Of a stretch of 64,000 nt of DNA, positions 42,577 to 58,549 are shown piece after piece (the stretch's first letter is position 1; the number at the start of each line of letters is the position of its first letter). This stretch comes from Halorarum salinum (GTDB lineage: Archaea > Halobacteriota > Halobacteria > Halobacteriales > Haloferacaceae), in contig NZ_CP058579.1 in assembly GCF_013402875.1 (NCBI RefSeq), positions 1,674,001-1,738,000 on the forward strand. The letters are read 5' to 3'. Position numbers and translations under genes: made by a program. Below the pieces are notes generated by a model, which saw nothing but the letters and a program-made list of their open reading frames with translations, searched no databases and was not told where the DNA came from.

Positions 42577-43951
42577 GCTCGATCACCTCCTCGGTCGTCA
42601 GTTCGGCGTAATCGACGTTCCCCGTGATCGGCTCGCGCGGCACGTAGATCGGAACGATCTCCGCCTTCTCCGTGATGCCGCCCGCGTCGTACGGGATGGC
42701 GACGCCGGAGCCGGCGGGTCCGGGCAGGGTGGTGGAGACGGTTCGGAGCGCCGGATCGAGGAGCTCCCGCTCGGGCGCGTTGCCCGCGACCCTGAGGATC
42801 ACCTCCTCGTGTTCGTCGATCGCCTCGCTGTAGTCGGGGCGACCGTCGTGTGCGTCGCCGTACAGCCCGTCCACGCCGAGGATCTCCATCCGCAGGTCAA
42901 GCCTCGACCGGTCGACGTCGAACACGTGCTCCAGGCGGTCGTCGACGATCCCCTTCGTCACCTCGGCGCGACCGACCGCGTTCGGTCCGCCGATGGGGAT
43001 GAACTTCTCGAACTCGTACCCCTCGATGCTCCCGAGCAGGACCTTCAGGTCCGCCGGGCGCTCGCGGCCGCCCCCGCCGCCGATCTCGACCCGGTCCGGC
43101 CCGACCTCCGTGAGCTCGACCGTCGAGAAGTCCGCGACGACGTCCGGGGTGACGTACTCCGAGGGGTCGTGGACCTCGTAGAACAGCTGCTCGCGCACCG
43201 TGTGCCGGTCGAGGCGCCCGCCGCTGTCGTCGGGCTTCGCCAGGACGGCCGACCCGTCCTCGGCCACCTCGGCGTACGGGTAGCCGATCCGGTGGAGGTC
43301 GGGCACCGGCTTTCGCGGCGGATCGCTGAAGTAGCCGCCGGTGACCTGCGCGGAGCACTCGAGGAGGTGCCCGACGACGGTCGCCCTCCCGAGCCGGTCC
43401 CAGTCGTCGAGCGCCCAGCCGTACTCGTGGACGAGCGGCCCGACGACCAGCGACGGGTCCGCGATCCGCCCGCCGATCACGACGTGGGCGTCGTAGGCGT
43501 CGTCGCGACGTTCCAGGGCCCCGACCACCTCCTCGGCCCCGATGTACGCGTTCGCCGAGATGAGCTCCGAGACGTCGACGTCGAACTCGTCGGCGCGCGC
43601 CTCGACGAGGTCCAGACAGCCGTCCCCGGTGATGGCGATGACCTGGACGGAGAGTCCCCGGTCCCGCGCGACCCGTCGCGCCAGCCTGGCGGCGCCGGTC
43701 GGGTCGACGACCCCGCCGTTCGTGACGATCGTCGTCCCGTGTTCCGTCGCGGGCCCCAGTATCAGTTCGAGCCTGTCCTCGAGGTAGGGATGGTAGCCGA
43801 CCTCGCCCTGGTGGGCCCGTTTCGCCGCGCGGCAGGTCGCGACGGTGCCGATGGTCTCGAGGATGACGTAGTCGAGCCCCTCGTCCATCAGCCGGCGGGA
43901 CGGTTCGAGCCAGTCGAGCGCGCTCCCACAGCCGCCTCCTATGGTGACCAT
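42566..43951 (-). CDS. Acyclic terpene utilization AtuA family protein (DUF1446)
   Basis: A 461-residue protein of the AtuA family: MVTIGGGCGSALDWLEPSRR, VTNGGVVDPTGAARLARRVAR, HVVIGGRIADPSLVVGPLVHEYGW, GHLLECSAQVTGGYFSDPP. In bacteria AtuA occurs in citronellol/geranyl-CoA pathways, but many members lie in other acid catabolism loci. No biotin carboxylase or geranyl-CoA genes are in the window, so a terpene role is not supported here. Works with the neighbouring DUF4387-type protein. Confidence 0.85.
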   Translation of the reverse strand: MVTIGGGCGSALDWLEPSRRLMDEGLDYVILETIGTVATCRAAKRAHQGEVGYHPYLEDRLELILGPATEHGTTIVTNGGVVDPTGAARLARRVARDRGLSVQVIAITGDGCLDLVEARADEFDVDVSELISANAYIGAEEVVGALERRDDAYDAHVVIGGRIADPSLVVGPLVHEYGWALDDWDRLGRATVVGHLLECSAQVTGGYFSDPPRKPVPDLHRIGYPYAEVAEDGSAVLAKPDDSGGRLDRHTVREQLFYEVHDPSEYVTPDVVADFSTVELTEVGPDRVEIGGGGGRERPADLKVLLGSIEGYEFEKFIPIGGPNAVGRAEVTKGIVDDRLEHVFDVDRSRLDLRMEILGVDGLYGDAHDGRPDYSEAIDEHEEVILRVAGNAPERELLDPALRTVSTTLPGPAGSGVAIPYDAGGITEKAEIVPIYVPREPITGNVDYAELTTEEVIERAD

Positions 43952-44097: not shown

Positions 44098-45270
44098 TCA
44101 GTAGCCGAGCCCCAGCGCCTGGTTCACGACCAGCGAACAGACGATGAGCGCGAGCAGCGCGACGAGGACCCAGAACGACGTCGCCCACCCGTACGTGTCC
44201 GCCAGGAACCCGACCGCGACCGAGCCAAGCGAGCTGACGAGGAGATACACCGTCCGGACGAGCCCGAAGCCGATCCCCTGTTCGGGCTCGGAGAGTTCGT
44301 CCATGAACCGCGGTTCGACCGTCACCGCCATGCCGAGGCCCGTCCCGACCAGGAGGACGGCGGCGACGATGGAGACGACCCCCGCGCCGACGATGAACAG
44401 GACCATCCCGAGCGCGCTGGTGATCACGCTGACCGCGATGGCGAGGTCCCGGTCGTAGCGGTCCGAGAGCACCCCCAGCCCCGGCTTCACGATCGCCTGG
44501 ACGACGAAGTACGAGGAGAAGACGACGCCGGCGGCCGTCGAGGAGAGGCCCCGATGCTCGATGAGGAACGTCGGGAGGAAGGAGGCGGTCCCCTGCCAGA
44601 CGAACGCGCCGACCGAGGCGATGACGGCGGTGAACACGATGGACGGCCGGCCGAGGAGTTCGAGCATCGGCCCTACGTGGAGCCGCTCCCTGATCGGCTG
44701 GTCGGGCCGCCGCGGCTCGGCCGACCGGACGCGGAGCGCGAACAGGACGAACACGGGGGCGGCGATCGCCGAGCCGATGGCGACCGCGGGCCGCCACCCG
44801 TAGCGGACGCCGATCCAGGCGGCCGCGACGGGGGCGATCAGCCCGCCCGCGGGGGCCCCGATGGTGTGGACGCCGATCGCCGTCCCGATGTCGTCGTGCG
44901 TGCGGGTGAGGAGGTTCGTCGCGGTGCTGTAGTGGAGGCCGGCGACGGCGCCGAGGACGACCACGCAGACGAGGAAGACGGGGAACGCGGGGGCGACCGC
45001 GATGAGGAAGCTCATGACCGCCGTCCCCCCGATCGCGAGGAGGACGACGAGCCGCTCACCGTACCGATCGCCGAGGACGCCGCTGGGGAACTGCGCGAAC
45101 GCGTACGACATCCACATCCCGGTCAGCGCGAACCCGATCACGGTGTTGGAGATGTCGAAGTCGGCCGTGATGGACGGGACGACCGGGCTGATCGCCAGCC
45201 GTGCGACCATCGTCGCGAAGAACGCGAACGTACAGAGGGCGAGGACGGTGTGTCGGTAGTGCCAACGCAT
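44098..45270 (-). CDS. MFS transporter
   Basis: A 390-residue major facilitator with 12 predicted helices. It starts MRWHYRHTVLALCTFAFFAT, and has the loop-2/3 motif GVLGDRYGERLVVLL (G-x-L-x-D-R-x-G type) and a second-half counterpart VLSDRYDRDLAIAVSVI. Organic-acid or oxalate/formate-type exchange is plausible from context only. The start at 45270 is the first ATG after a gap upstream. Confidence 0.88.
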   Translation of the reverse strand: MRWHYRHTVLALCTFAFFATMVARLAISPVVPSITADFDISNTVIGFALTGMWMSYAFAQFPSGVLGDRYGERLVVLLAIGGTAVMSFLIAVAPAFPVFLVCVVVLGAVAGLHYSTATNLLTRTHDDIGTAIGVHTIGAPAGGLIAPVAAAWIGVRYGWRPAVAIGSAIAAPVFVLFALRVRSAEPRRPDQPIRERLHVGPMLELLGRPSIVFTAVIASVGAFVWQGTASFLPTFLIEHRGLSSTAAGVVFSSYFVVQAIVKPGLGVLSDRYDRDLAIAVSVITSALGMVLFIVGAGVVSIVAAVLLVGTGLGMAVTVEPRFMDELSEPEQGIGFGLVRTVYLLVSSLGSVAVGFLADTYGWATSFWVLVALLALIVCSLVVNQALGLGY

Positions 45271-45455
45271 GTCAGTCGGTTCCGCGTCGCGGGGGACCCG
45301 GTTGACCACGACTCCACGCGACTGACGAATCAGTGTGGAGATTCCGGCAACCCTGTGCCGGACCGAGCCCGGAAGGGGGACGGCGGGGAATCGTGACGGT
45401 CCATTGCCGGACCCACGGGGGCGGTCCCGGGGTCGCGGCGGGCGGGGCCGGCCCG

Positions 45456-45674
45456 TTACTGTGCAGGGACGTGCTCGTCGGGGATCGCGTACGGCTGGCT
45501 GCAGCCGTGGATCTCCAGCGTACAGCTCGGGCAGATCGAGTGTTTCTCCCGGCGGTGGGCCACGGACTGTCGCTGCCGCGACGGGTCCTCCTCCAGCGGC
45601 ACGCGCCGCTCGGCGGGCAGGTCGGCGAACGCGATCAGTTCCGTGTCACAGATCGGGCAGTCCTCGAGTTCCAT
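45456..45674 (-). CDS. Small zinc-ribbon-like protein
   Basis: A 72-residue protein with two Cys pairs, CPICDTEL near residue 6 and SICPSCTLEIHGC near residue 47, separated by an Arg/Glu-rich loop. The pattern fits a zinc ribbon. A TATA-like TTTTAAG stands about 27 nt before the ATG. Role unknown; many haloarchaeal zinc microproteins act in regulation. Confidence 0.75.
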   Translation of the reverse strand: MELEDCPICDTELIAFADLPAERRVPLEEDPSRQRQSVAHRREKHSICPSCTLEIHGCSQPYAIPDEHVPAQ

Positions 45675-45761
45675 GCGGGCCGTTCACACGCCCGGGGCTT
45701 AAAACCGACCCCGGCGAGCGTCGCCGTGGTGGTCCCGCTCGCCGGTCGACGGGCGGGTCCG

Positions 45762-46193
45762 TCAGTCGGTGTGGACGAACGTGACCGGTCGGTCGGCCTC
45801 CAGCAGGATGGACTGGGCGGTGCTCCCGAACAGCGCCTTCCCGACGGGGCTCCGTTTCTTCCCGCCGATGACGATCACAGCGGCGTCGTTCGCCCTCGCC
45901 TCCGCGAGCACCTCGTCCGACGGTTCCCCGTGCCGGCGAACGACGGACGCCGCGACGCCACGGTCGGCGAGGTACCCTCGCACCGCTTCGGCGGATTCGG
46001 GGACGTCGGTCTCGTCGTAGAGGTCCTCCGAGTCGACGTCGCCGCCCTCCGCGTCGGTCACGTCGAACTCCTCGAAGACGTTGACCACCGTCACCTCGAC
46101 GGCGTCGGCCGCCCGGGGGAGCGATGCGACCGCCTCCCCGAGACGCGTCGGTTCGGCCATGTCCGCGTCTACCGCGACCACTGCGTGGTACAT
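45762..46193 (-). CDS. Universal stress protein (UspA family)
   Basis: A 143-residue Usp domain: MYHAVVAVDADMAEPTRLGE, VTVVNVFEEFD, and the C-terminal IVIGGKKRSPVGKALFGSTA with the ATP-binding G-rich loop. The second Usp in this window. It is divergent from the glutaredoxin-redoxin fusion. Confidence 0.88.
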   Translation of the reverse strand: MYHAVVAVDADMAEPTRLGEAVASLPRAADAVEVTVVNVFEEFDVTDAEGGDVDSEDLYDETDVPESAEAVRGYLADRGVAASVVRRHGEPSDEVLAEARANDAAVIVIGGKKRSPVGKALFGSTAQSILLEADRPVTFVHTD

Positions 46194-46330
46194 GGTCCCC
46201 GTCGTCCGTCCTCCTACTTCAAACTGTGCGTGGATTCGGAGGTGTGGATGGCCGTGCCGCCCGCTCGGCGGGGATCGCCCGGCCCGCCGCGGCGGCGACG
46301 TTTTTACGGTGGCCGCCCGAACGGCCGACC

Positions 46331-47131
46331 ATGTCCACGACCGCGTCCGACGACGGGGAGGGTACGACCGTGACGCTGTACCGGCTCCACGGCTGTCCGT
46401 ACTGTGAGCACATCGTCGAACTGCTGGATCGACACGGCGTCGAGTACGCGTCCCGGTTCGTCGCGGGCGAGCACAGCCGCCGGGACGGCGTCGCGCGGGT
46501 CGCGGGGACGCGCTCGGTGCCGCTGTTGGTCGACCACGAACGGGGCGTGACCATGGCCGAGAGCGCCCGGATCGGCGAGTACCTGGAGCGGACGTACGGG
46601 GGCGGGGACGCGGGGGCTACCCCCGAGTTCCGGCCGGTCACGTTCCCGCCGTCGGACCACCCCGTCGCGGGTGAGCGGGCGCCGGAGTTCACCCGCCCGC
46701 TCGTCACGCGTGAGGGCTGGGAGGACGTCCCGCTGTCGGCGCTCGCTTCCGAGGCCGGCTCCGTCCTGCTCGTGTTCTCCCCGCTGAACTGGGGCGGCAA
46801 GTCGATGTACTGGTGGAAGGAGATCGAACGGCGGGGCTGGGGCGACGACGACGTCGCGGTGGTGGGGCTCGGCGTCTCCCAGCCGTTCGACCACCAGCGC
46901 TTCCTCGAGCGGCGCGACATGCCCTACCCGCTGTACTCGGACCCCGCCAACGGCGTCGCGGAGGCGTACGACGTCGTGCACGACCTCGACGGGATGGCCG
47001 GCGTCGCGGAGCCCCGGCCGGCCGCGTTCCTCCTCGACGACGGGCTGACGGTGAGTTACGAGTGGGTCGCGGACGAGTGGCCGGAGACGCCCCCGTACGA
47101 CGACGTGGAGTCGGCGATGGCGTCCCCGTGA
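46331..47131 (+). CDS. Glutaredoxin-peroxiredoxin-like fusion, peroxidatic Cys absent
   Basis: A 266-residue two-domain protein. Residues about 12-95 are a glutaredoxin/GST-N domain with CPYC in LYRLHGCPYCEHIVELL and the cis-Pro region RSVPLLVDHERG. Residues about 118-262 are a redoxin/AhpC-TSA-like domain with LLVFSPLNWGGKSMYWWKEI, FDHQRFLERRDMPYPLYSDP and the strand AAFLLDDGLTVSYEWV. The peroxidatic Cys normally in the first part of this domain is missing (SPLNWGGKSM). A TATA-like TTTTTAC (46301-46307) backs ATG 46331. Confidence 0.85.
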   Translation: MSTTASDDGEGTTVTLYRLHGCPYCEHIVELLDRHGVEYASRFVAGEHSRRDGVARVAGTRSVPLLVDHERGVTMAESARIGEYLERTYGGGDAGATPEFRPVTFPPSDHPVAGERAPEFTRPLVTREGWEDVPLSALASEAGSVLLVFSPLNWGGKSMYWWKEIERRGWGDDDVAVVGLGVSQPFDHQRFLERRDMPYPLYSDPANGVAEAYDVVHDLDGMAGVAEPRPAAFLLDDGLTVSYEWVADEWPETPPYDDVESAMASP

Positions 47132-47168
47132 GCGGGTTCCCCGTCCGGTCCCGGCTCGCCCGACCGGG

Positions 47169-48056
47169 TCACCCGGTCAGCGTGACGACGACCGCGCCGG
47201 CGACGACGGTCAGCGCGCCGACGACGAGCCGCGGGGTGACCCGCTCGACGCCCTTCAACAGCACCGCGGACGCGAGGATGACGAGCAGCGGGCTCGTCTG
47301 CATGATGGGGACGACGATGCCGACGCGGGAGACGGCCAGCCCCGCGTAGTACGCGAGCAGGAACCCGGTGCTCATCGTCCCGGCGAGCACGTACCAGCCG
47401 AGTTCGCGCCTGGGAACGTCCCCCGGTCGCGGGATGGAGTCCCGCCACGCGAGGTAGGCGACGATGACGACGAACGCGGCGAGCGTCTTGACGGTGAGGC
47501 CGACGAAGGCGCTCGTCCCCTCCCGGAGCCCCACCGTCGCGAAGATCGGCTCGAGCGCGAAGAAGAAGGCGGCCGCGAGCGGGAGCGACGCCCCGAGCCC
47601 GGACGCCCCGTCGACGTCCGTGTTCGCGTCCCGCCCCTGCCGGGAGACGAAGGCGATGCCGGCGACGACGAGCACGACGCCGACGAACTGCCCGCCCGTG
47701 ACGACCTCGTCGAGGAACAGGAACGCGAGGATCGTCGCGTGGAGCGGCATGGACGCCTTGATCGGCTCCGCGCGGCTGGCGCCGATGCGCTTGATGCCGG
47801 CGTAGAACAGGCTCCGACCGACGAGCGTTCCCGTGAGCCCCGCGAGCACGAACGCGCCCAGGGATCGCCACGTCACGACGGGGTCCGGAACGACGAGCGC
47901 CGTGAGCGGGACGAGCACGACGACGTTCACGGCGATCACGACGAGGAGGACGTCCGCGGGCTTGCCGTGGCGCGTGGCGAGCCGGATCGTGAGCGCCTGC
48001 CCGGCGAGACAGCAGGCGGCCACTGCGGCGAGGCCGACCCCCAGACTCGACACCAT
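47169..48056 (-). CDS. EamA/DMT family transporter
   Basis: A 295-residue drug/metabolite transporter with ten helices in two EamA repeats: repeat 1 includes AGLTGTLVGRSLFYAGIKRIGASRAEPI, repeat 2 LAGTMSTGFLLAYYAGLAVSRVGIVVPI. The start MVSSLGVGLAAVAACCLAGQA at 48056 opens the first helix. It may export amino acids or metabolites. It is convergent with the fusion gene. Confidence 0.88.
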   Translation of the reverse strand: MVSSLGVGLAAVAACCLAGQALTIRLATRHGKPADVLLVVIAVNVVVLVPLTALVVPDPVVTWRSLGAFVLAGLTGTLVGRSLFYAGIKRIGASRAEPIKASMPLHATILAFLFLDEVVTGGQFVGVVLVVAGIAFVSRQGRDANTDVDGASGLGASLPLAAAFFFALEPIFATVGLREGTSAFVGLTVKTLAAFVVIVAYLAWRDSIPRPGDVPRRELGWYVLAGTMSTGFLLAYYAGLAVSRVGIVVPIMQTSPLLVILASAVLLKGVERVTPRLVVGALTVVAGAVVVTLTG

Positions 48057-48210
48057 ACACCGTCGGTGACTGCTCGGCACTTCACCCTGTTCATTCGGGC
48101 ACGGTGTTGCCCACCCGGCCAGTCCGACGGGACGAGATCGGTCCGGACGCGATCGACGGGGCCGCGTTCGGTCCGGACGTCCGGCGCGACCGCCCGTGTG
48201 ACCCGAATGT

Positions 48211-48236
48211 ACATATACGGAACGCGCAACGTTCCG
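48211..48236 (+). promoter_or_regulatory. TATA-like element and inverted repeat before the small Cys protein/BKACE operon
   Basis: ACATATA at 48211-48217 is about 25 nt before ATG 48239. Directly behind it, CGGAACG (48218-48224) and CGTTCCG (48230-48236) are perfect 7-bp inverted arms with 5-nt spacer, covering the likely transcription start. The position suits a repressor site. Confidence 0.55.
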
Positions 48237-48238
48237 GC

Positions 48239-48460
48239 ATGGGCAACCAGTGTCGGTACCTCGAATACCGGGCGGAGGGGGACGGGAAGGAGTTCGACGT
48301 CGAGCGGGCCTACTGCACCGCAGCCCAGCGGTTCGTCCAGCCGATGCGCGCGGACGTCTGCAACCGTCGGTACGACCTCGAGCCCGAACGGGACTGCGAG
48401 TACTACGAGGCCGCCGAGTCGGCCGGGGCTGACGAAGGAGCCGGGGCGAGCGAGCCATGA
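48239..48460 (+). CDS. Small Cys-containing protein coupled to BKACE
   Basis: A 73-residue protein: MGNQCRYLEYRAEGDGKEFD, then VERAYCTAAQRFVQPMRADV and CNRRYDLEPERDCEYY, with four Cys (residues 5, 26, 41, 53) and an acidic tail. The Cys spacing suggests a metal or iron-sulfur site. Its stop overlaps the BKACE start by 4 nt (ATGA), so the two are made together. No family recognised. Confidence 0.7.
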   Translation: MGNQCRYLEYRAEGDGKEFDVERAYCTAAQRFVQPMRADVCNRRYDLEPERDCEYYEAAESAGADEGAGASEP

Positions 48461-49296
48461 CGTACGACGACTACCTCGACGGGAAGCCGGTCATCGTCAC
48501 GGCGGCGCTCACGGGCGGGGTGCAGGGGAAGGAGACCGTCCCGAACCTCCCCGAGTCGCCGGCGGAGATCGCGGAGGCGGCCCGCGAGTGTGAGGCCGCC
48601 GGGGCGAGCATCCTCCACCTGCACGCACGCAGGGAGAACGGCGAGCGCGCCTTCTCGACCGAGCGGTTCCAGGAGGTCACCGACGCCGTTCGGGGGGCGA
48701 CCGACGACGTCATCGTCCAGCACTCGACGGGAGGGACCGCGGCGTCCGACGAGATCCGCGCGGAGCCGCTCCGGACCGACCCGGCCCCCGAGATGGCGTC
48801 GCTGGACATGGGTCCGCTCAACCGGTACGCGAAGCTCACGAGCGAGAACACGAGGGGGCTCGTCGACGACCTCCACGAGGAGATGCTCGAGCGGGGGATC
48901 AAGCCAGAACTGGAGGTGTTCAACGGCGGCCACCTGAACGAGTCGATGCGGATCTGGGACGAGCTCGAGGAGCCGCCGTACGTGAACCTCGTCTTCGGCG
49001 GCGGGACGACGACGATCCCGCACCCGCGAAACCTCGTCACGCTCGTCGACAACCTGCCGGACGGCGCCGAGTTCAACGTCCTCGGGTTCGGTCCCCACCA
49101 GCTGTCGATGACGACGACGGGGCTGCTTCTGGGCGGCCACGTCCGGGTCGGCCTGGAGGACAACAGCTACTACCGGCGGGGCGAACGGGCCGAGAGCAAC
49201 GCGCAACTGGTCGAGCGGGCGGTGCGGATCGCCGGCGAACTCGAACGGCCGGTCGCGTCGCCCTCGGAGGCGCGGTCGATCCTCGGGATGGACTGA
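48457..49296 (+). CDS. Beta-keto acid cleavage enzyme (BKACE, DUF849)
   Basis: A 279-residue TIM-barrel enzyme of the 3-keto-5-aminohexanoate cleavage family, which condenses a beta-keto acid with acetyl-CoA to give acetoacetate plus a new CoA ester. The zinc His pair is in ILHLHARRENG, with SLDMGPLNRY, LEVFNGGHLNE and the strongly conserved GGHVRVGLEDN (zinc Glu). Substrate differs widely across the family and cannot be read from the sequence. It is coupled to the Cys-rich protein. Confidence 0.92.
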   Translation: MTYDDYLDGKPVIVTAALTGGVQGKETVPNLPESPAEIAEAARECEAAGASILHLHARRENGERAFSTERFQEVTDAVRGATDDVIVQHSTGGTAASDEIRAEPLRTDPAPEMASLDMGPLNRYAKLTSENTRGLVDDLHEEMLERGIKPELEVFNGGHLNESMRIWDELEEPPYVNLVFGGGTTTIPHPRNLVTLVDNLPDGAEFNVLGFGPHQLSMTTTGLLLGGHVRVGLEDNSYYRRGERAESNAQLVERAVRIAGELERPVASPSEARSILGMD

Positions 49297-49377
49297 GCCG
49301 TCGCGCGGTCGGCCCTCCCGCCGCGGTCGACGGCAGCGGTTCCGAGCAGCCGACGGCGTCGACGGGCCGAACGTCCC

Positions 49378-50151
49378 CTAGCGGTCCGCAGCTTCGTCGT
49401 ACAGCTCCAGCGCCCGCTCGTTCGCCTCCCGGAGGGCGGTCGTGTCCTTGCCGACGATCTGGAAGCCGAACCCCCGCTCGACCCGCTCGGGGGCGTCCTC
49501 GGGCCGGACGGTCAGCGTCCCGACGGGGACGTCCGCGGCCTCCCCGGCGGCGATCACGCGGTCCATCGCCTCCAGGAACGGCTCGGCGTCCCACTCGCCG
49601 AAGCAGCCGAGCGCGCCCGAGAGGTCGGCCGGGCCCGCGAACAGCGCGTCGACGCCGTCGACGGCCGCGATCGCCTCGGCGTTCTCCAGGCCCTCGAGCG
49701 TCTCGATCTGGGCGATGGTCACGAACGTCTCGCTCGCGCGCTCGACGTACGATCGGAAGTCGGAGCCGTACCCCGACGCGCGTCCCGACGCGATGCCGCG
49801 GGTGCCCTCCGGGGGGTACCGGAGCGAGTCGACGAGCGACTCCGCCTCCGCGGCGGTGTCGATCATCGGGACCATCACGCCGGAGACGCCGACGTCGAGG
49901 ACGCGCTTGAGGTACACCGGGTCGTTCCACGGGACGCGGATGACGGTCCCCGCGTCCCCGCCCGCCGCCACGATCGCCCGGTGCATGTGCTCGACCGTCT
50001 CGAGCGTCGTCGTGGTGTGCTCGGTGTCGATGAGCACGAAGTCGAACGCGGAGGAGGCGCTCACCTCCGCGATCACAGGGCTGCCCGCCGAGACCCACGT
50101 CGCGGCGAGGTGGCGGCCGGACTCGAACGCCGCCTTCAACCGCTCGCTCAT
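49378..50151 (-). CDS. HpcH/HpaI family aldolase
   Basis: A 257-residue class II aldolase: FDFVLIDTEHTTTTLETVEH, the Arg in VIRVPWNDPVYLKRVLDVGV, metal Glu in QIETLEGLENAEAI and Asp in ALFAGPADLSGALG, and GTRGIASGRASGYG. The family splits 2-keto-3-deoxy or 2-keto-4-hydroxy acids into pyruvate and an aldehyde (GarL, HpaI, RhmA). It is divergent from an acid-sugar dehydratase, a fit for a keto-deoxy-acid pathway. Start at 50151 chosen as the first Met of the family N-terminus. Confidence 0.92.
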   Translation of the reverse strand: MSERLKAAFESGRHLAATWVSAGSPVIAEVSASSAFDFVLIDTEHTTTTLETVEHMHRAIVAAGGDAGTVIRVPWNDPVYLKRVLDVGVSGVMVPMIDTAAEAESLVDSLRYPPEGTRGIASGRASGYGSDFRSYVERASETFVTIAQIETLEGLENAEAIAAVDGVDALFAGPADLSGALGCFGEWDAEPFLEAMDRVIAAGEAADVPVGTLTVRPEDAPERVERGFGFQIVGKDTTALREANERALELYDEAADR

Positions 50152-50591
50152 CGCTCCCCCGCGCCGTCGGGCCGCGAGCGTGGCCGGGTCGCGCGCGACT
50201 CCGCTCGCGCGGTCGCACCCGGGCGGTCGACGCTGCCGGCTGGTGTAACGTACATCGCTTCGGGGGTGAGTTCGTCCACTGTGATAAAGGTCTTTGCGTG
50301 GACACACCTCCGGGCCGGACCCGGCCGGCGCGAGCGTCGCGGCGGGAGTCGCCCGCCGTCGCCGGCCGCGACCGTCGGCCGGATGTGACTCCCTCCCAAA
50401 GGTTATGTGCGCGTCCGAACGACTCACGGTCGATTCCGGTCGGCGAGTCGCCCCGGCGGCCCTCCGGCCGCTGCGGGCGCCCGTCGACCGCGTCCGACCC
50501 CGACGGAACGGCCCGCTCGACTCGGCCCCCGACGCACCGGGGTCGGGGGAATCACCGGAGACGATCGACCGTCGCGACCGAGGAAACCAAG
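50152..50591. other. Divergent promoter region with a long 5' leader
   Basis: 440 nt between two divergent genes. Leftward, a CCTTTATCA element (plus-strand TGATAAAGG, 50282-50290) is about 130 nt from the aldolase ATG. Rightward, AAGGTTATG (50398-50406) is about 190 nt from the dehydratase ATG. Unlike most genes here, both may have long leaders. GTCCAC (50274-50279) and GTGGAC (50298-50303) flank the leftward TATA element. Confidence 0.45.
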
Positions 50592-51770
50592 ATGCAAATC
50601 AGCGAGATAGAGATCCACGAGTTCACCTACGAACTGGAGTCGGTGGGGACCGCCCACGGGCACCAGGTGTACGACCCGGACAGCACGCTCGAGACCCCCG
50701 CGTTCGTGCTCACGATCCGAACCGACGACGGCCTGGAGGGGCGGTATCGGAGCATCACGTTCGCGAAGTCGATGCTCGTCCAGATCGAGATGGCGGCCGC
50801 GGAGTTCCTCCTCGGCCGGGACCCGCTGGAGCGGGAGGGGATCTGGGAGGAGATCTGGCGCGGGTTCCGGCACACCGACCACATGGGGCTCGGACCCATC
50901 GACATCGCGCTCTGGGACCTCGCCGGGCGTCACTACGGCGACTCCGTCTCGAAGCTGCTCGGCGGCTACCGCGAGGAACTGCCGGCGTACGCGTCGACGT
51001 TCTTCATGGACGACGCCCCCGACGGGCTGAGCTCCCCGGCGGCGTTCGCCGAGTTCGCGGAGGAGTGTCTCGACGCCGGGTACCCCGCGTTCAAGATCCA
51101 CGGCCACCCCGACGGGGACCCCGACGTGGACGTCGAGATCTGCCGCGCGGTCGCGGACGCGGTCGGCGACGAGATGGACCTGATGCTCGACCCCGCGAGC
51201 AACTACCGCACGTACCTGGACGCCAAGCGGGTCGGCCGCGTCCTGGACGAACTCGGCTTCTACTGGTACGAGGACCCGATGGCCGACACCGGTCAGAGCA
51301 TCAACGCCGCGCGGAATCTGACGAGGGAACTGGACACGCCGCTGCTCGGGCTCGAACACGTACGCACGGGCCCGTTCGGACGCGCCGACCACATCGCGGG
51401 GGAGGCCGCGGAACTCGTCCGGGCCGACGTCCACCAGGACGGCGGCATCACGGGCGCGCTGAAGATCGCCCGCGTCGCCGAGGCGTTCGGGCTCGACGTG
51501 GAGCTCCACATCGGCGGCCCCGCGACCATGCACTGCATGAGCGCGATCCGAAACTCGAACTACTTCGAGCACTCGCTCGTCCACCCCAGCGGGGTCGACT
51601 GGATGAACCAGCTCGGGTTCGTGGGGTCGCCCGAGGCGCTCTCGGACGCGGGGACGGTCACCGTCCCCGAGGGACCGGGGCTCGGCGTCGAGATCGACTG
51701 GGAGTACGTGGAGGAACGGCTGACCGACCACAGCGTGATCGACAGCGCCGGCTCGGCGAACGTCGTGTGA
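50592..51770 (+). CDS. Enolase-superfamily acid-sugar dehydratase (mandelate racemase group)
   Basis: A 392-residue MR/MLE enzyme. The capping domain is residues 1-125; the barrel has a K-x-H motif AFKIHGH (K168, H170), metal ligands D200 (MLDPASNY), E227 (YEDPM) and E255 (GLEHV), and the His-Asp dyad D279 (RADVHQDGG) and H306 (ELHIGGP). The 27-residue spacing of the dyad equals that of mandelate racemase. It should dehydrate an aldonic or aldaric acid, but which one is unclear. The start at ATG 50592 has GAGGAAAC in front as a weak ribosome-binding site. Confidence 0.9.
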   Translation: MQISEIEIHEFTYELESVGTAHGHQVYDPDSTLETPAFVLTIRTDDGLEGRYRSITFAKSMLVQIEMAAAEFLLGRDPLEREGIWEEIWRGFRHTDHMGLGPIDIALWDLAGRHYGDSVSKLLGGYREELPAYASTFFMDDAPDGLSSPAAFAEFAEECLDAGYPAFKIHGHPDGDPDVDVEICRAVADAVGDEMDLMLDPASNYRTYLDAKRVGRVLDELGFYWYEDPMADTGQSINAARNLTRELDTPLLGLEHVRTGPFGRADHIAGEAAELVRADVHQDGGITGALKIARVAEAFGLDVELHIGGPATMHCMSAIRNSNYFEHSLVHPSGVDWMNQLGFVGSPEALSDAGTVTVPEGPGLGVEIDWEYVEERLTDHSVIDSAGSANVV

Positions 51771-51989
51771 CGCGCCGGTTCGATCCCCACGACCTGACCG
51801 TCCGACGGTTTCCGGCCCGATGGTCTCCGAGCACCGCGCGGACGCCCGTCGTCCGTCGACGGGCGCAGGTCACGATCCAGTTCCGCCGGCTACGGATGCG
51901 GAACGGCGGTTCGTGGTCCGCACGGGGCGCTCGGGTCCCTCCCGGTCGACTCACGCCCGCGGTGAAAAACGGTCCGCGTCGACGTCGCG

Positions 51990-53114
51990 TTACTCGCCCC
52001 GTTCCAGGTCGTCCCGCCAGACGCCGACTTCCTCGTAGAAGTCCGCGGCGCCGGGGTGGACCGGCGGCAGCCCCTCGCCCTCGAGCGCGTTGACGAAGTA
52101 CTCGGGGTTCTCCCCGTACGGGAAGAACGCGGGCTGGCCCTCCTGGACGCTCTCGTACTCGTCGTGGGCCACCTGCAGCATCTCGTAGACGGCCTCGTTC
52201 GGGACGTCCGGCGAGACGTAGTACTGGAAGAGGATCTGGTACCCCTGGATCTGCCCGCCGACGTCCTGATTGAAGCCGTACGAGTCCTTCTCGTAGTAGG
52301 GCACGAGCGGCGACGACTCGAAGACGTTCTTGAAGCTGTCGGACACCTCGACGGTGTGCAGGTCCGCGCGGGCGTCGACCTCGGCGAACCAGGAGGGGAG
52401 GTTGACCTCGTTGGCGCCGTAGCCCAGGATGGCGTCGATCCGGCCCTCCTCGACCGCCCCGGCGACGTCGCTCGTGTCGATGTTGACGACGTTCTCGGTC
52501 AGCTGCTCCTTGAGCTCGGGGTCCTCGTCCATGACCTCCATGAACATCGCCCTGGTCCCCCAGCCTGGCTGGAGCAGGTAGACGTTCTTGCCCAGCATGT
52601 CGTCGGTGGTCTCGATGCCGGAGCCGTCGACGGCGACGAAGAAGTCGTCGCGGACGAAGTAGCTGAAGCACTGGTACGGCACCTCCATCTCCTCCTGGAA
52701 CGGGTCCTCCCCGTTCATCCCCTTTCGGACGATGTAGTTGGTGAGCCCGTACGCTTCGAGGTCGCCCTCGTCGTAGATCCGGATGCTCGGGGGGTCGCCG
52801 CCGGTGGTCTGGGTGTTCCATCGGACGCTGTCCGAGTGTTCGCGGAGGACGCGCTGGAAGGCCTGGGACGTCTGGAAGACGGTGGAGCCCTCGGTGGAGG
52901 AGCCGACGCGCATCTCGACGACGTCGTCGCCGTTGCCGCCGCCGTTCCCGCCGCCGTTCCCGTCGCCGTTGCCGCCGCCGTTCCCGTCGCCGTTGCCGCC
53001 GCCGTTCCCGTCACCGTTCCCGTCGCCCCCTCCCATACACCCGGCCATTCCGAGCACACCTAATCCAGCCGTTCCTTTTAGCATCCGCCGTCTCGTTCGA
53101 GATTCCTCTGGCAT
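51990..53114 (-). CDS. TAXI family TRAP transporter solute-binding lipoprotein
   Basis: A 374-residue binding protein with a Tat lipoprotein signal (RTRRRMLKGTAGLGVLGMAGC; LGMAGC-like lipobox), a Gly/Asn/Asp repeat linker (residues about 28-63) and the TAXI domain: MRVGSSTEGSTVFQTSQAF, IRIYDEGDLEAYGLTNYIV, KNVYLLQPGWGTRAMFMEV, ILGYGANEVNLPSWFA. It feeds the fused TRAP permease upstream of it on the same strand. TAXI ligands are usually small carboxylates or amino acids. TATA-like ATTTATTA (plus 53141-53148) supports ATG 53114. Confidence 0.92.
   Translation of the reverse strand: MPEESRTRRRMLKGTAGLGVLGMAGCMGGGDGNGDGNGGGNGDGNGGGNGDGNGGGNGGGNGDDVVEMRVGSSTEGSTVFQTSQAFQRVLREHSDSVRWNTQTTGGDPPSIRIYDEGDLEAYGLTNYIVRKGMNGEDPFQEEMEVPYQCFSYFVRDDFFVAVDGSGIETTDDMLGKNVYLLQPGWGTRAMFMEVMDEDPELKEQLTENVVNIDTSDVAGAVEEGRIDAILGYGANEVNLPSWFAEVDARADLHTVEVSDSFKNVFESSPLVPYYEKDSYGFNQDVGGQIQGYQILFQYYVSPDVPNEAVYEMLQVAHDEYESVQEGQPAFFPYGENPEYFVNALEGEGLPPVHPGAADFYEEVGVWRDDLERGE
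52925..53034 (-). repeat. In-frame tandem repeat coding the Gly/Asn/Asp linker
   Basis: Repeats of an 18-24-nt unit, coding GDGNGGGN-type octets, lie directly after the lipobox of the TAXI lipoprotein. They make a flexible spacer between the membrane anchor and the binding domain; slippage may vary the length. Confidence 0.8.
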
Positions 53115-53268
53115 TGCGTATGTCACCATAGTTTAGGCGCTAATAAATGTGGGGGGGATTGTCACGGGCAACCGTGATTAGTAGCCGGAAGGCCGCGGAT
53201 GCCGGCGGTTCAAGGGCGGGAGTCCCCGCTGCGGGCGGGGAAGACGCCGACGGAGGGCGGCGTGCCCG

Positions 53269-53511
53269 CTAGAACTCGAACAGCATGACGTCGAAGAGGA
53301 ACGCGACGCTCCAGTAGGCGAAGATCACCGTGAGTACGGCCGCGAACGTGACCTTGACGCCCCGTCTCACCACGTCGAGGTTGTCCGGCCTGATTCCACT
53401 CGCCGCGGTCCTGAGCGAATCGCTGAAGCTATCGAGCCTACCTGCCAGGTCCTCCGGCCCTTCGGCGTCGGTTCGATCCGGGGCGTCGGCATCGGCGCTG
53501 TCGGACGTCAT
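53269..53511 (-). CDS. Single-TM small protein in the TRAP locus
   Basis: An 80-residue protein: acidic N-terminus (MTSDSADADAPDRTDAEG), amphipathic SFSDSLRTAASGIRPDNLDV, and one C-terminal TM helix FAAVLTVIFAYWSVAFLFDVML. It lies between the fused permease and the TAXI lipoprotein on the same strand, so it could be an accessory subunit of this importer. No homologous family is known to me. Confidence 0.7.
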   Translation of the reverse strand: MTSDSADADAPDRTDAEGPEDLAGRLDSFSDSLRTAASGIRPDNLDVVRRGVKVTFAAVLTVIFAYWSVAFLFDVMLFEF

Positions 53512-53610
53512 GGGCCGTGGTAGAAGCTCACACGGCTTAAACGTTCGTTTCCTCCGGGGCGGGCGTTCCGGGGCGCGAAACGACGGGCGGGAAAGTCGGC
53601 CAGAGACGGC

Positions 53611-55614
53611 TCAGAACCGACGGAGGATCGACGTGTGGACGCTCGTGACGTCCGTGTCGTTGACCGTCAGGAACTGCCACCCCATCAGGACCACGACCAC
53701 GACGAACGTCCCCATCCGAATGAACTCGTTAGGCGATGCCATGATGACGATGCCGAGCACGGCGAACACGAAACTCAACGCGAGGTTGGCCGGTCGGCTC
53801 GTGAACGCCTTGCCGTAGTAGTTGAGCCCGTGGACGAGCGAGAAGGCGCCGAGCAGCAGCAGGGCCGAGGAGAGGAGTTTGTACGCGGTCAGCCCCTCGA
53901 CGATTATTTCCGGGTTGTAGATGAACGCGAACGGAAGCACGAACAGGGGGGCGGCGATCTTGATCGCCTCGATCGCGGACTTCCAGAAGTTCGACCCCGC
54001 GATCCCGGTCGTCACGACGACGGCGATGGCGATCGGCGGCGTGATCCCGGACAGGATCGCCGCGTAGAAGACGAAGTAGTGGACGGGAAGCCGGGCCAGC
54101 TCGAACCCCTCGATGAGCGACGGCGCGACGAGCAGCGCGACGATGGTGTAGGCCGCGACCGTCGGCATGCCGAGCCCGAGAATCATACAGATGAGCATCG
54201 CGAGCAGGAGCGCGATGATGAGCACCCCCCCGGAGAGTTCCATCAGCGCGAGCGCGAGCTTCCCGGGCACGCCGGTCGTGACGAGGACGTCCACGATCGC
54301 GTTGATCGCCGCGACGATGACGGCGATCGGCGCGAAGATGAGCGCACCGTACTTGAGCCCGCTCAGCGTCTGTTCGAACACGTCGAGGACGGACGTCTCG
54401 TTCCACCCGAGGAGCCGCTCGAACATGGGGAACGTGATCCCCGTCAGGAACATCGTGACGGACGTGTACAGCGCCGCCGACATCACCGTCCACTGTGCGA
54501 CGCCGAGCGTGTAGAGCAGGACCACGAAGGGGATCGCGAGTTTGACGGTCTCGGACAGGAACGCCGGACCCGACTTGCGTTCCCCCACGTCCGCGTCGTC
54601 CCCGATGGTGAGGCCGGTCTGGATGTCCTGGTTGATCGCGGCGTAGTGGACCGCGATGGCGACGGAGAGGTAGAAGACGAGCGCGGGCACGATCCCGGCG
54701 AGCACGACGTCGATGTACGTGATCCCCAGGATCGACGCCATGATGAACGCGGCCGCGCCCATGACCGGCGGCATGATCTGCCCGCCGGAGGACGCGACGG
54801 CCTCGACGCCCGCGGCCGTTTCCTTCTTCATGCCCGCGTCCTTCATCAGCGGGATGGTGACCGACCCGGTCATCGCGGCGTTCGCCACCTGGGCGCCGTT
54901 GATCGACCCGATGGCCAGGCTCGCGACGACCGCGGACTGTGCGATGCCCGACTCGACGAACTCGGACACCCTGAACGCGATCCGCATCACGTAATCGAAC
55001 GCGCCGTACCCGTTCAACAGCCCGGCGTACAGCAGGAACAGCGCGACCCAGGCGGCCACGATGCCGCTGATGGAGCCGAAGAAGCCGCTGAAGTCCATGA
55101 CGAACACGTTCAGGATCCGATCCATCGTCAGCCCGCCGTGTCCGATGATGCCGGGGAGGTGCGGCCCGAGCCAGGCGTACAGCCCGCCGCCGGCGATGAC
55201 GGCCAGGAACGCCATCCCGAACGCCCGGTAGATCAGGTAGAACATGGCCAGCGTGAACATGAGCGCGAGGACGTACTCGTGGTGGTACGACGTGCCGCGC
55301 CGCATGAACAGGAGCTCATCGAAGTTGAGGATCAGGTACGTCGTCGTCACGACGACGATGCCCAGCGTGACGGTGAGCAGGTAGGTGTCGACCACCTTAC
55401 GCTCCTCGATGGAGTCGACCATCTCGTTGAGCACGTACATCGAGAACGCGAGCCCGAACAGCCCGAGCGTGTACAGAATTCGTTCCCACTGTTGCGTGTA
55501 CGCGTAGTAGATCGCGACCCCCCAGAGTACGATCGAGAGCACCGTCAGTAGCTTGTCGATCGCTACCGCAGGCCCAAAACTAGTTCCCGATTCGTGTTCG
55601 GCCATGGAGTCCAT
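53611..55614 (-). CDS. TRAP transporter permease, fused small and large subunits
   Basis: A 667-residue TRAP permease with about 16-18 TM helices; the first four form the fused DctQ part, the rest the DctM part. The domain has GSINGAQVANAAMTGSVTIP, GVEAVASSGGQIMPPVMGAA and LGLGMPTVAAYTIVALLVAP. This TAXI-type fusion works with the TAXI lipoprotein. ATG 55614 or 55605 could start it; a TATA-like CATTTATCTC (plus 55629-55638) favours the first, giving a leaderless mRNA. Confidence 0.93.
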   Translation of the reverse strand: MDSMAEHESGTSFGPAVAIDKLLTVLSIVLWGVAIYYAYTQQWERILYTLGLFGLAFSMYVLNEMVDSIEERKVVDTYLLTVTLGIVVVTTTYLILNFDELLFMRRGTSYHHEYVLALMFTLAMFYLIYRAFGMAFLAVIAGGGLYAWLGPHLPGIIGHGGLTMDRILNVFVMDFSGFFGSISGIVAAWVALFLLYAGLLNGYGAFDYVMRIAFRVSEFVESGIAQSAVVASLAIGSINGAQVANAAMTGSVTIPLMKDAGMKKETAAGVEAVASSGGQIMPPVMGAAAFIMASILGITYIDVVLAGIVPALVFYLSVAIAVHYAAINQDIQTGLTIGDDADVGERKSGPAFLSETVKLAIPFVVLLYTLGVAQWTVMSAALYTSVTMFLTGITFPMFERLLGWNETSVLDVFEQTLSGLKYGALIFAPIAVIVAAINAIVDVLVTTGVPGKLALALMELSGGVLIIALLLAMLICMILGLGMPTVAAYTIVALLVAPSLIEGFELARLPVHYFVFYAAILSGITPPIAIAVVVTTGIAGSNFWKSAIEAIKIAAPLFVLPFAFIYNPEIIVEGLTAYKLLSSALLLLGAFSLVHGLNYYGKAFTSRPANLALSFVFAVLGIVIMASPNEFIRMGTFVVVVVLMGWQFLTVNDTDVTSVHTSILRRF

Positions 55615-55731
55615 ATGGATTATTCACCGAGATAAATGTTGTGTGGGAAACCGAATCGACGGCGCTCGGTTTTCCGGCGCCCGGACGCCCTCCGAGAAAC
55701 GGTTATGCACGGGGGTTCCGAACGGACCCGC

Positions 55732-56727
55732 ATGGTCGAGACGAACGGCGGGGCCGACGCCGACCCGGTCCGACGGGTCGCGGTCGTCGGCGCCGGCACG
55801 ATGGGGCACGGGATCGCCGTCGCGTTCGCGGCCGGCGGCCGAACGGTGCGACTGTTCGACGCCGACGAGGCGGCGCTCGACGGGGCACGGTCCGCAGTCA
55901 AGAACGCGGTCTCGACGCTCGTCGGGCACGACGCCGCCGAAGCCGACGCGGCCGAGTCCGTGCTGGACGCGATCGAGTACGAGCCGTCGCTCCCCGACGC
56001 GGTCGCCGACGCCGACCTCGTCGTCGAGGCGGTGCCGGAGGACCTCGCGATCAAGACGGAGACGTTCCGGCGGGTCGAACGGGCCGCCCCGGCCGACGCC
56101 GTGCTGGCGTCGAACACCTCATCGCTGTCGATCACCGAGCTCGGCGACGCGGTCGACGACCCGCGTCGGCTGCTCGGGACGCACTGGTTCCACCCGCCCC
56201 ACATCGTGCCCGTCGTCGAGGTCGTGAAGGGCGAGGGGACGGCCGACGGGCCCGTCCGCGTCGTGCGGGAGGCGCTGGAGGCGATCGGCAAATCGCCCGT
56301 CGTCCTCGAGAAGGAGGTGCCGGGGTTCATCGGGAACCGGATCCAGTCCGCGATGGCCCACGAGGCGTGGTCGCTCCTGCGGGAGGGCGTCGCGAGCGCG
56401 GAGGACATCGACACGGCGGTCAAGGGGACGTTCGGGTTCCGCCTGCCCGCGCTCGGCGTGTTCGAGAAGGGCGACCACTCCGGGCTCGACGTTCACGCCA
56501 AGGTGCTCTCGGGGCTCCTCGACGAGATCGATCGCGGGACGACCCCCGCCGAGTCGCTGACGCGGCTGGTCGAGGAGGGGCGCTACGGCGCCAAGACGGG
56601 GGCGGGCGTCTACGACTGGAGCGACGTCGACGTGGAGGCGGCGACCGACGAGCGGGACCGTCAGCTACTCTCGCTGCTCGAGGTCTACCGCCAGCGGGAA
56701 CGGAAGGCGCCCCCGCTGGAGGAGTAG
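55732..56727 (+). CDS. 3-hydroxyacyl-CoA dehydrogenase family protein
   Basis: A 331-residue NAD-dependent dehydrogenase. Rossmann GAGTMGHGIAVAFAAGG at residues 21-37, VEAVPEDLAIKTETF, SNTSSLSI, the catalytic His-Glu dyad in HWFHPPHIVPVVEVVKGEGT, and NRIQSAMAHEAWSLLREG for dimerisation. Single-domain members include L-3-hydroxyacyl-CoA, carnitine and L-gulonate 3-dehydrogenases, so a free hydroxyacid may be the substrate here. A TATA-like GGTTATGC (55700-55707) sets ATG 55732; the upstream codon at 55705 lies inside it. Confidence 0.9.
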   Translation: MVETNGGADADPVRRVAVVGAGTMGHGIAVAFAAGGRTVRLFDADEAALDGARSAVKNAVSTLVGHDAAEADAAESVLDAIEYEPSLPDAVADADLVVEAVPEDLAIKTETFRRVERAAPADAVLASNTSSLSITELGDAVDDPRRLLGTHWFHPPHIVPVVEVVKGEGTADGPVRVVREALEAIGKSPVVLEKEVPGFIGNRIQSAMAHEAWSLLREGVASAEDIDTAVKGTFGFRLPALGVFEKGDHSGLDVHAKVLSGLLDEIDRGTTPAESLTRLVEEGRYGAKTGAGVYDWSDVDVEAATDERDRQLLSLLEVYRQRERKAPPLEE

Positions 56728-56745
56728 CCGCCCGACGGGGCCGTG

Positions 56746-57525
56746 TCAGTACGTGACCTTCCCGGCGGTCACGTTCACGCTCTGGCCGGTGATACGGTCC
56801 GCGGCGGTCGAACAGAGGAACGCCACCGTCCCGGCGACGTCCTCCGGCTCGACGAACTCCTCGCGCGGGCTGCGGGCCGCCTTCTCCGCCTCGACCTCCT
56901 CGAACGACCGGTCGGTGGCGGCCGCCTGCCGCTCGATCACCCGGTCGATCCGCGGGCCGGCGACCGAGCCCGGACAGATCGCGTTCGCGTTGACGTCGTG
57001 TGGCCCCCCTTCGACGGCCAGCGTCCGCGTGAGTCCGAACAGGCCGCTCTTCGAGGCCGTGTACGGCGCGCGGTACGGGACGGGCCGTTTGCCCGACGCC
57101 GAGGAGACGTTGACGATCCGCCCGTACCCCTGCTCCTTCATCGGGCCCATCAGCTCCCGACAGAGCAGGAACGGGCCGCGGAGGTTCACCGCCATCGTCG
57201 AGTCCCACTCCTCGGGGGTGACGTCCTCGACGGGGTCGGTGGGGCCGGCGATGCCCGCGTTGTTGACGAGCACGTCGATCGATCCGACCCGAGCGGTCGC
57301 CTCGGCCACCCCGTCCGCGACGTCCTCCCGATCCGTCACGTCCATGCGGACACACGTCGCCTCGCCTCCCCGCCGTTCGATATCGCGTTTCGTCTCGGCC
57401 GTGTCCTCGTCGTCGATGTCCGCGACGACGACGGCGAGTCCCCGGTCCGCCAGTTCCCTACAGATCGCCTCGCCGATGCCACGCCCGCCGCCCGTGACGA
57501 GCGCCGTCTCCCCGTGTAGTTCCAT
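56746..57525 (-). CDS. SDR family oxidoreductase (classical)
   Basis: A 259-residue classical short-chain dehydrogenase: TGGGRGIGEAICRELA cofactor loop, acidic ADIDDEDTAE after strand 2 (NAD preference), NNAGIAGPTDPV, and active-site S-Y-K in SSASGKRPVPYRAPYTASK. The start at 57525, with TATA-like ACTATATC about 30 nt upstream, trims a 25-residue basic extension. It may reduce or oxidise a sugar-acid or hydroxy acid. Confidence 0.92.
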   Translation of the reverse strand: MELHGETALVTGGGRGIGEAICRELADRGLAVVVADIDDEDTAETKRDIERRGGEATCVRMDVTDREDVADGVAEATARVGSIDVLVNNAGIAGPTDPVEDVTPEEWDSTMAVNLRGPFLLCRELMGPMKEQGYGRIVNVSSASGKRPVPYRAPYTASKSGLFGLTRTLAVEGGPHDVNANAICPGSVAGPRIDRVIERQAAATDRSFEEVEAEKAARSPREEFVEPEDVAGTVAFLCSTAADRITGQSVNVTAGKVTY

Positions 57526-57688
57526 GCCCGAACTCTGCCGGCGGACGTGATATAGTTGTTTGGCCCGGGCCGTTCGACGGACCCGCGGCGGCGAGGTCAC
57601 CCGTCGGAACGGCGGTCAGTCCGTGCCGCGGCACTGTGACCTGTTATCACGCTACAATATATATGCCGCCGGGAGGAACACTCCGCCC

Positions 57689-58480
57689 ATGGATCTAGAG
57701 ATCCAGGGTAACGCGGCAGTGGTAACGGCATCGAGCAGCGGGCTCGGCAAGGCATCGGCGATGGCGCTGGCGGAGGAGGGGGCGAACGTCGTCATCAACG
57801 GGCGGGACGAGGAACGGCTCGACCGGGCGGTTTCGGACGTCGACGCGGCCGGCTCCGGGACCGTGGTCGGCCAGCGGGGGGACATCACGGACGAGGACGA
57901 CGTCTCCGCGCTGGTCGACCGCGCGCTCGACGAGTTCGGCGGCATCGACCACCTCGTCACGTCCGCCGGCGGCCCTCCGAGCGGCTCGTTCATGGACACG
58001 ACCGACGAGGACTGGAACGACGCCCACGAGCTGCTCCTCATGAGCGTCGTCCGACTCATCCGCGAGAGCGCGGAGCCGCTTCGGGCGGACGGCGGCGGGA
58101 CCATCGTCAACATCACCTCCCGCAGCGTCAAGGAGGCGATCGATCCCATCGTCCTATCGAACTCGGTCAGGATGGGGGTCGTCGGCCTCGAGAAGACGCT
58201 CTCGCGGGAGTTCGCCCCCGAGGTGCGTGCGAACGCCGTCCTCCCGGGCCCCCACGAGACCTCGCGCGTCGAGAACCTCGTCGAGGACGCAGTCGGGCGG
58301 GGCGAGTACGACTCCTACGAGGAGGGGATCGCCGACCGCGCCGAGAGCATCCCGGTCGGCCAGCTCGGCGACCCGACGGGGCTCGGCAGGACCGTCGCGT
58401 TCCTCAGCGCGCCGAGCTCGGCGTTCATCAACGGGACGACCGTGACGGTCGACGGCGGGCTCGGCCGGGCGACGCTGTGA
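57689..58480 (+). CDS. Atypical SDR (BKR-like), catalytic Tyr/Lys missing
   Basis: A 263-residue SDR-fold protein. Its cofactor loop is TASSSGLGKASAMALAEEG rather than the usual TGxxxGIG, and in place of Y-3x-K it reads ITSRSVKEAIDPIVLSNSVR. This matches a subgroup of SDR-like proteins that lacks the standard tetrad. DLLVTSAGGPPSGSFM-type start of strand 4 is present. A TATA-like AATATATATG (57656-57665) gives a leaderless start at 57689. Function unknown. Confidence 0.85.
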   Translation: MDLEIQGNAAVVTASSSGLGKASAMALAEEGANVVINGRDEERLDRAVSDVDAAGSGTVVGQRGDITDEDDVSALVDRALDEFGGIDHLVTSAGGPPSGSFMDTTDEDWNDAHELLLMSVVRLIRESAEPLRADGGGTIVNITSRSVKEAIDPIVLSNSVRMGVVGLEKTLSREFAPEVRANAVLPGPHETSRVENLVEDAVGRGEYDSYEEGIADRAESIPVGQLGDPTGLGRTVAFLSAPSSAFINGTTVTVDGGLGRATL

Positions 58481-58549
58481 CCGCCGGTTGACCGACCGCG
58501 TCGACCCCGAGCGGCACCTCTTTAATGGGCGCACGCATCGTCTCCGTTC

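Follow-up and report, generated by a model that had tools for sequence, protein, structure and literature searches.

A class II aldolase and an acid-sugar dehydratase in a candidate sugar-acid gene cassette of Halorarum salinum

The aldolase, the dehydratase and the DNA between them

The stretch of DNA analysed here (the window) comprises 64,000 nucleotides (C1:1674001-1738000) of the 4.26 Mb genome of Halorarum salinum (G000); its GC content is high (about 0.71) and the encoded proteins are acidic. Coordinates with the prefix C1 refer to the source contig, bare coordinates to positions in the window. Family and equivalog assignments were decided by the curated cut-offs of Pfam and NCBIfam, orthologues and linkage were searched for in 170 genomes of the family, and the gene content of relatives was taken from our own codon-usage gene caller, with loci L069 and L094 left out.

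At 49378-50151 on the minus strand lies the gene of an HpcH/HpaI (GarL-type) class II pyruvate aldolase (257 amino acids), and at 50592-51770 on the plus strand that of an acid-sugar dehydratase of the MR group of the enolase superfamily (392 amino acids), which resembles the structures 1RVK and 4HCH. In both cases the mechanical open reading frame is too long at the 5′ end: 49378-50427(-) for the aldolase, which is likely to start with the ATG at 50151 (MSERLK...), and 50298-51770(+) for the dehydratase, with a likely ATG start at 50592 (MQISEI...). The original prediction had named an HpaI-type aldolase and an MR-group dehydratase here, and both are indeed real genes whose products exceed their Pfam cut-offs and keep their catalytic residues.

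The aldolase matches HpcH_HpaI (PF03328) with an E value of 2.5e-39 (135.3 bits, cut-off 25), and its AlphaFold model is confident (mean pLDDT 89.7). The nearest solved sequences are those of GarL from E. coli (1dxe, E 1.1e-41), a class II pyruvate aldolase from Pseudomonas, and HpaI. With GarL (1dxe) and HpaI (4b5s) the protein shares fold, length, catalytic His/Arg/Asp and metal ligands; H45, R72, D86, E150 and D176 are invariant in an alignment of 18 sequences, and we take them to be the catalytic His, Arg and Asp and the metal-binding Glu and Asp of these enzymes. The predicted fold gives Z values of 34.4 to 1dxe (GarL), 34.9 to 4mf4 and 33-35 across the GarL and HpaI structures, which do not separate GarL from HpaI. 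It should be noted, however, that the scores reach only about half of the equivalog cut-offs or less: 172.6 bits versus 406.75 for GarL (TIGR03239), and 186.5 bits, likewise below the cut-off, for HpaI (TIGR02311), which is the top NCBIfam model. Membership in the class II pyruvate aldolases is therefore secure, the substrate is not, and no specificity can be assigned to a protein that is equally near to GarL and HpaI.

The dehydratase exceeds the cut-offs of both MR_MLE_C (PF13378, E 2.8e-45) and MR_MLE_N (PF02746, E 5.6e-10), and its AlphaFold model is equally confident (mean pLDDT 89.7). The best sequence match in the PDB is 1rvk (E 6.9e-59) and the best fold match is 4hch (Z 48.1, 372 residues, 2.0 Å), which is titled D-glucarate dehydratase from Agrobacterium tumefaciens; the next group of folds follows at Z 41.9 (an enzyme with m-xylarate/L-lyxarate bound) and Z 41.4 (a proposed galactarolactone cycloisomerase). 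The active site is complete, with K168-x-H170 (KxH), the metal ligands D200/E227/E255 and the dyad D279/H306. The Agrobacterium protein (4hch/4hcd/1rvk) matches over the full length with about 33% identity and Z 48, and the KxH motif, the three acidic metal ligands and the catalytic His are aligned; at the position of D279, the partner of the His, it has Gly, however, and its chemistry may therefore differ from that of the archaeal enzyme. A literature search for the function of 1RVK retrieved no paper. In NCBIfam the dehydratase reaches no equivalog cut-off of any named MR dehydratase; for example, it scores 21.4 versus 828.7 bits with TIGR03247 and 100.4 versus 500 bits with NF047820 (glucarate and talarate/galactarate dehydratases). 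By analogy with a nearest structure that is 33% identical, the dehydration of an aldarate may be a candidate role for this protein. In five orthologues from genus g18 (L019-L023, 61-63% identity) the catalytic Asp and His are replaced by Ser and Leu while the KxH motif and the metal ligands are retained, which suggests an altered reaction; having lost the equivalents of D279 and H306, these five proteins probably have another function.

The two starts are separated by an intergenic region of 440 bp (50152-50591), which shows no extended similarity to the regions upstream of the orthologues. A scan for bacterial sigma-70-type promoters and terminators found nothing, as is expected in an archaeon. 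A promoter-like element of 17 bp, CACGCAAAGACCTTTAT, lies on the minus strand at 50284-50300, 132 bp upstream of the aldolase start. It is found in identical form about 90 bp upstream of the aldolase orthologue of G145, and since the other neighbour is a different gene there, the element belongs to the aldolase. Transcription of both genes from a shared region had been proposed: the genes are divergent and 440 bp apart, but a common promoter region as a conserved control was rejected, because no relative examined has the divergent pair and because the intergenic DNA lacks extended similarity.

Gene content of the cassette

About 20 genes of this neighbourhood are common to G000, G145, G115 and G137. 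G145 has about 20 homologues of genes from 44098-60924 and from the adjoining 15 kb in a single block, which is flanked by unrelated genes at either end. The block begins with genes for an MFS transporter, Usp, a redoxin, EamA, the aldolase, a glyoxalase, 2-oxoglutarate (alpha-ketoglutarate) semialdehyde dehydrogenase (KGSADH, identical with 2,5-dioxovalerate dehydrogenase), a KdgD-like protein, IclR, the MR-group protein MR-A and an SDR. It continues with a ThDP enzyme, a 3HCDH-type protein, MR-B, a TIM-barrel isomerase, MR-C and a LarA-type protein, and it ends with a D-2-hydroxyacid dehydrogenase, an SDR, a 3HCDH-type protein, TRAP and TAXI.

In the window the aldolase side of the cassette is marked by a putative MFS-type transporter (44098-45270, minus strand), which has no NCBIfam match at 1e-50 and has orthologues of 70-78% identity in G115, G137, G145 and G066. 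On the dehydratase side follow the genes for a TAXI-type TRAP solute-binding protein (51990-53129, minus; PF16868, E 1.8e-17; TIGR02122, 68.6 bits, below the cut-off of 84.35; orthologues of 69-71% in G115, G137 and G145), a fused TRAP transporter permease (53611-55614, minus; TIGR02123, 404 bits, cut-off 320.65; orthologues of 74-75%), an NAD dehydrogenase of the 3-hydroxyacyl-CoA dehydrogenase family (55732-56727, plus; PF02737, E 4.5e-56; 69-71%), an SDR oxidoreductase (56746-57525, minus; PF13561, E 6.5e-60; 71-74%) and a D-2-hydroxyacid dehydrogenase (58550-59494, plus; PF02826, E 3.4e-57; 72-73%), which scores 269 bits with NF041369, below the cut-off of 400. The next gene (59584-60924, minus) encodes a nickel-pincer (LarA-type) 2-hydroxyacid isomerase of group 22 (NF052515, 486 bits, cut-off 400; orthologues of 77-81% in relatives), which is a probable epimerase; a literature search found no activity for this group. 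G063, G166 and G167 have more distant LarA-type homologues (43-49%) in the vicinity of MR and aldolase genes. A crotonase-family protein (61144-61923, plus) and a predicted TIM-barrel sugar-isomerase-like protein (63309-64000, continuing to C1:1738361, minus; orthologues of 81-82% in G115, G137, G145, G066 and G067) complete this side. The accessory genes named in the original prediction (glycerate kinase, D-2-hydroxyacid dehydrogenase, SDRs and TRAP importer) are all borne out by profile matches.

A gene for a beta-keto acid cleavage enzyme (BKACE; 48457-49296, plus; PF05853, E 4.2e-85) is convergent with the aldolase gene and missing at that place in the relatives that carry the cassette. 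As a partner of the aldolase it was rejected on that ground, and it is probably outside the unit. An AtuA-family protein (42566-43951; PF07287, E 3.7e-108, full-length match), from a family of acyclic terpene utilisation, is also encoded outside the conserved cassette.

The genome has two dozen matches to MR_MLE_C (PF13378), and most of the genes lie in a stretch of roughly 70 kb from 50592 to about C1:1794708, 57 kb beyond the window end. The second-strand motifs of the other MR genes of this island vary (KxH, KFD, KxR and others), so that several chemistries or substrates are represented. DHDPS-like, ABC, TRAP, IclR and dehydrogenase genes are interspersed between them. Among the matches listed (at most 16 per genome, on which the MR gene counts across the 170 genomes rest), relatives such as G103 seem to be at least as rich in MR genes as G000.

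Partners of the aldolase in related genomes

Orthologues of the dehydratase (at least 55% identity, counting the clade that ends at G167) were found in 12 of the 170 genomes and orthologues of the aldolase (at least 53%) in 10. G115 and G137 have both, at 76-78% identity, in the same cassette and 16 kb apart; G145 has the aldolase (77%) in its cassette and no orthologue of the 50592-51770 dehydratase; and in G066 and G067 much of the cassette core is present and the aldolase is missing. Gene order and orientation around the aldolase vary from genome to genome. For example, the whole block from TAXI to glyoxalase is inverted in G145 relative to G000, one breakpoint lying next to the aldolase, and the TAXI and TRAP permease genes of G000 differ in relative orientation from those of G115, G137 and G145, the TAXI gene being the one that is flipped. 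The separate loci in G115 and G137, the inversion breakpoint and the flipped TAXI gene are best read together, with the divergent pair as a product of rearrangement. The back-to-back arrangement is thus peculiar to G000, an accident of this one locus and no conserved unit, and the expected co-conservation holds for the membership of both genes in a conserved haloarchaeal sugar-acid cassette but not for their adjacency, as G115, G137 and G145 show. In G115 and G137 a putative RraA/HMG-aldolase-like protein (215 amino acids; 8119-8766 of L056 in G115) is encoded divergently from the dehydratase orthologue, and no counterpart was called in the window.

A more consistent neighbour of the aldolase is MR-B, an MR-group dehydratase encoded just beyond the window (C1:1738572-1739804) that is closest to 2qq6 and to the galactonate/gluconate dehydratase models. 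Its orthologues (at least 74%) occur in only 10 genomes, and in 8 of these the contig also bears the aldolase orthologue, 1.3-14.4 kb away; these 8 genomes belong to 6 genera. The hypergeometric probability of this co-occurrence is 1.4e-10 by genome and 2.7e-6 by genus, as compared with 0.002 and 0.05 for the 50592-51770 dehydratase and the aldolase, all four values ignoring kinship and resting on identity thresholds set after the lists had been seen. Linkage is also evident at the level of the families: across the 170 genomes a 1RVK-like MR gene is present within 5 kb of 9 aldolases and within 20 kb of 18, where 0.27 and 1.08, respectively, are expected under random gene placement, a presumption to be read with the fact that catabolic genes cluster anyway. 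Distant aldolases of the same family adjoin or lie near MR-B-like or 1RVK-like dehydratase genes in G040, G063, G096, G098, G166 and G167; the two genes share 4 bp in G166, where the dehydratase is MR-B-like, and G063 has the aldolase gene between an MR-B-like and an MR-A-like gene, all three consecutive on one strand. From this family-wide linkage it follows that the general association of aldolase and dehydratase is right for the families; in G000, however, the aldolase's main partner is probably MR-B rather than the neighbour 50592-51770, with which it had been paired.

There remains the question of whether the two neighbours have anything to do with each other at all. They would not if the aldolase and the dehydratase worked in unrelated pathways and had become neighbours by rearrangement, the dehydratase acting with a crotonase and an acyl-CoA dehydrogenase on another hydroxy acid. 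In G115 and G137 the dehydratase orthologue indeed overlaps the crotonase gene by 4 bp, with an acyl-CoA dehydrogenase gene behind it, and this run may indicate a different role for the dehydratase; moreover, no aldolase lies near the g18 orthologues, the five of which that were examined lack the His-Asp pair, and the surroundings of the aldolase differ in order and orientation. Yet G115 and G137 still have both genes in one cassette, and the dehydratase has the full catalytic set and aldarate enzymes as its nearest structures, which makes separate pathways unlikely.

Routes from the keto-deoxy acid

The aldehyde dehydrogenase encoded at C1:1747473-1748918 passes the model of the haloarchaeal 2,5-dioxovalerate dehydrogenase (NF052305, 832.6 bits, cut-off 750), i.e., KGSADH, which catalyses the last step of the oxidative aldarate and pentonate routes (PMC5703739, PMC8551123). 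Its gene adjoins that of the KdgD-like protein in G000, G145, G066 and G067. The two KdgD models are the only NCBIfam matches of the latter protein at E 1e-20, with 120.3 versus 373.95 bits for the KdgD equivalog (TIGR03249). In the oxidative (nonphosphorylative) aldarate/uronate route an aldarate dehydratase, KdgD and KGSADH act one after the other (PMC5703739). The cassette resembles this route in its MR dehydratases, its KdgD-like protein and a KGSADH above the curated cut-off; it differs from it in that the KdgD-like protein stays below the cut-off and that it has a GarL-type aldolase, a LarA-type isomerase and a ThDP enzyme in addition. The oxidative pentose degradation of haloarchaea also leads to 2-oxoglutarate, via a pentonate dehydratase, a keto-deoxy-pentanonate dehydratase and KGSADH, and its ribonate dehydratase is an enzyme of the enolase superfamily (PMC8551123). 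Common to both are a first dehydratase, a second dehydratase and KGSADH, whereas the cassette has a KdgD/DHDPS-like protein as its second dehydratase and contains a class II aldolase; neither a pentose dehydrogenase nor a lactonase was identified in the cassette. The best-documented exit is thus that via the KdgD-like protein and KGSADH to 2-oxoglutarate, and not the GarL-GarR-GarK sequence of which the gene set had been thought to be a mirror image.

The latter would require that, as in E. coli (GarD-GarL-GarR-GarK), the adjacent dehydratase feeds the aldolase, that tartronate semialdehyde is reduced to glycerate, and that the kinase and the enolase encoded in the window complete the pathway. 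In accordance with this the aldolase is GarL-like and a glycerate 2-kinase gene (40780-42132) directly follows that of a second enolase (39487-40770), which is 41% identical to the housekeeping enolase encoded elsewhere among apparent translation and transcription genes. The kinase, however, belongs to class II (PF13660 and PF05161, MOFRL), and GarK is a class I glycerate kinase, the two classes being unrelated (PMC2063504). Of the enolase no match was found in G115, G137 and G145 at E 1e-100, so that the enolase-kinase module (39487-42132) and the aldolase are not conserved together; 12 other genomes have the enolase, with the kinase gene next to it in 3 of 3 checked (L105-L107). The statement that there is no GarR-type tartronate semialdehyde reductase is valid for the window but not for the genome, since one is encoded at C1:1820246-1821118. 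It scores 308 bits with TIGR01505, below the cut-off of 340.75, and its gene is unlinked, 96 kb away; G115 and G137 have such a reductase on other contigs, and in G145 no match was found at E 1e-60. A route from the aldolase via glycerate to 2PG is possible in G000, although it is not what is conserved, and as an explanation of the locus the E. coli scheme is improbable. That the aldolase instead forms or cleaves a non-sugar hydroxy-keto acid (promiscuity as in HpaI, with, e.g., aromatic or branched substrates) is very unlikely, for although HpaI is the top model, at a score below its cut-off, and BKACE, crotonase, acyl-CoA dehydrogenase and cyclase genes are nearby, the aldolase is repeatedly linked to MR-group acid-sugar dehydratases in six genera and BKACE is not conserved at its locus.

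We therefore favour, as the rather probable reading, that both genes belong to a haloarchaeal catabolic cassette for sugar acids with MR dehydratases, an exit via the KdgD-like protein and KGSADH and an exit via the aldolase. Family membership, intact catalytic residues, fold, conservation of the cassette and linkage between aldolase and MR genes are the computational observations that speak for it; the substrate, the order of the steps, the dehydratase that feeds the aldolase (probably MR-B) and the joint working of both exits are what we infer from them. The TRAP/TAXI or the MFS transporter would import an acid sugar (probably an aldarate or related aldonate), which the LarA-type enzyme would epimerise at C2, if needed, and which one of several MR-group dehydratases, 50592-51770 among them, would then dehydrate to a 2-keto-3-deoxy acid. 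The keto-deoxy acid would then either be converted by the KdgD-like dehydratase and KGSADH to 2-oxoglutarate or undergo metal-dependent retro-aldol cleavage by the 49378-50151 aldolase to pyruvate and an aldehyde of three or fewer carbons, which would be reduced or oxidised later. By analogy the most likely substrate is an aldarate, and because the cut-offs for GarL, HpaI, the named MR dehydratases and KdgD are all missed, the substrates may differ from those of the named enzymes. A keto-deoxy-acid pathway of the glucarate/galactarate type, as originally predicted, is in line with 4hch as nearest structure, a GarL/HpaI-like aldolase and the linkage, but no equivalog cut-off is reached and the main partner is probably another one.

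The pair of aldolase and dehydratase is in itself ordinary in kind. Rather unlikely is the further proposal of an undescribed haloarchaeal pathway in which several MR dehydratases and the group 22 epimerase feed different acid sugars into one pool of keto-deoxy acid; if this is true, the pool leaves both via the aldolase to pyruvate and via KdgD/KGSADH to 2-oxoglutarate. A search by title and abstract of the literature on haloarchaea (glucarate, mandelate racemase, HpaI aldolase) found no paper describing an archaeal aldarate pathway, and for this reason the cassette is a concrete, testable candidate for one. It also gives a substrate context for LarA group 22, which is not among the eight groups listed with shown activity (PMC11851776).
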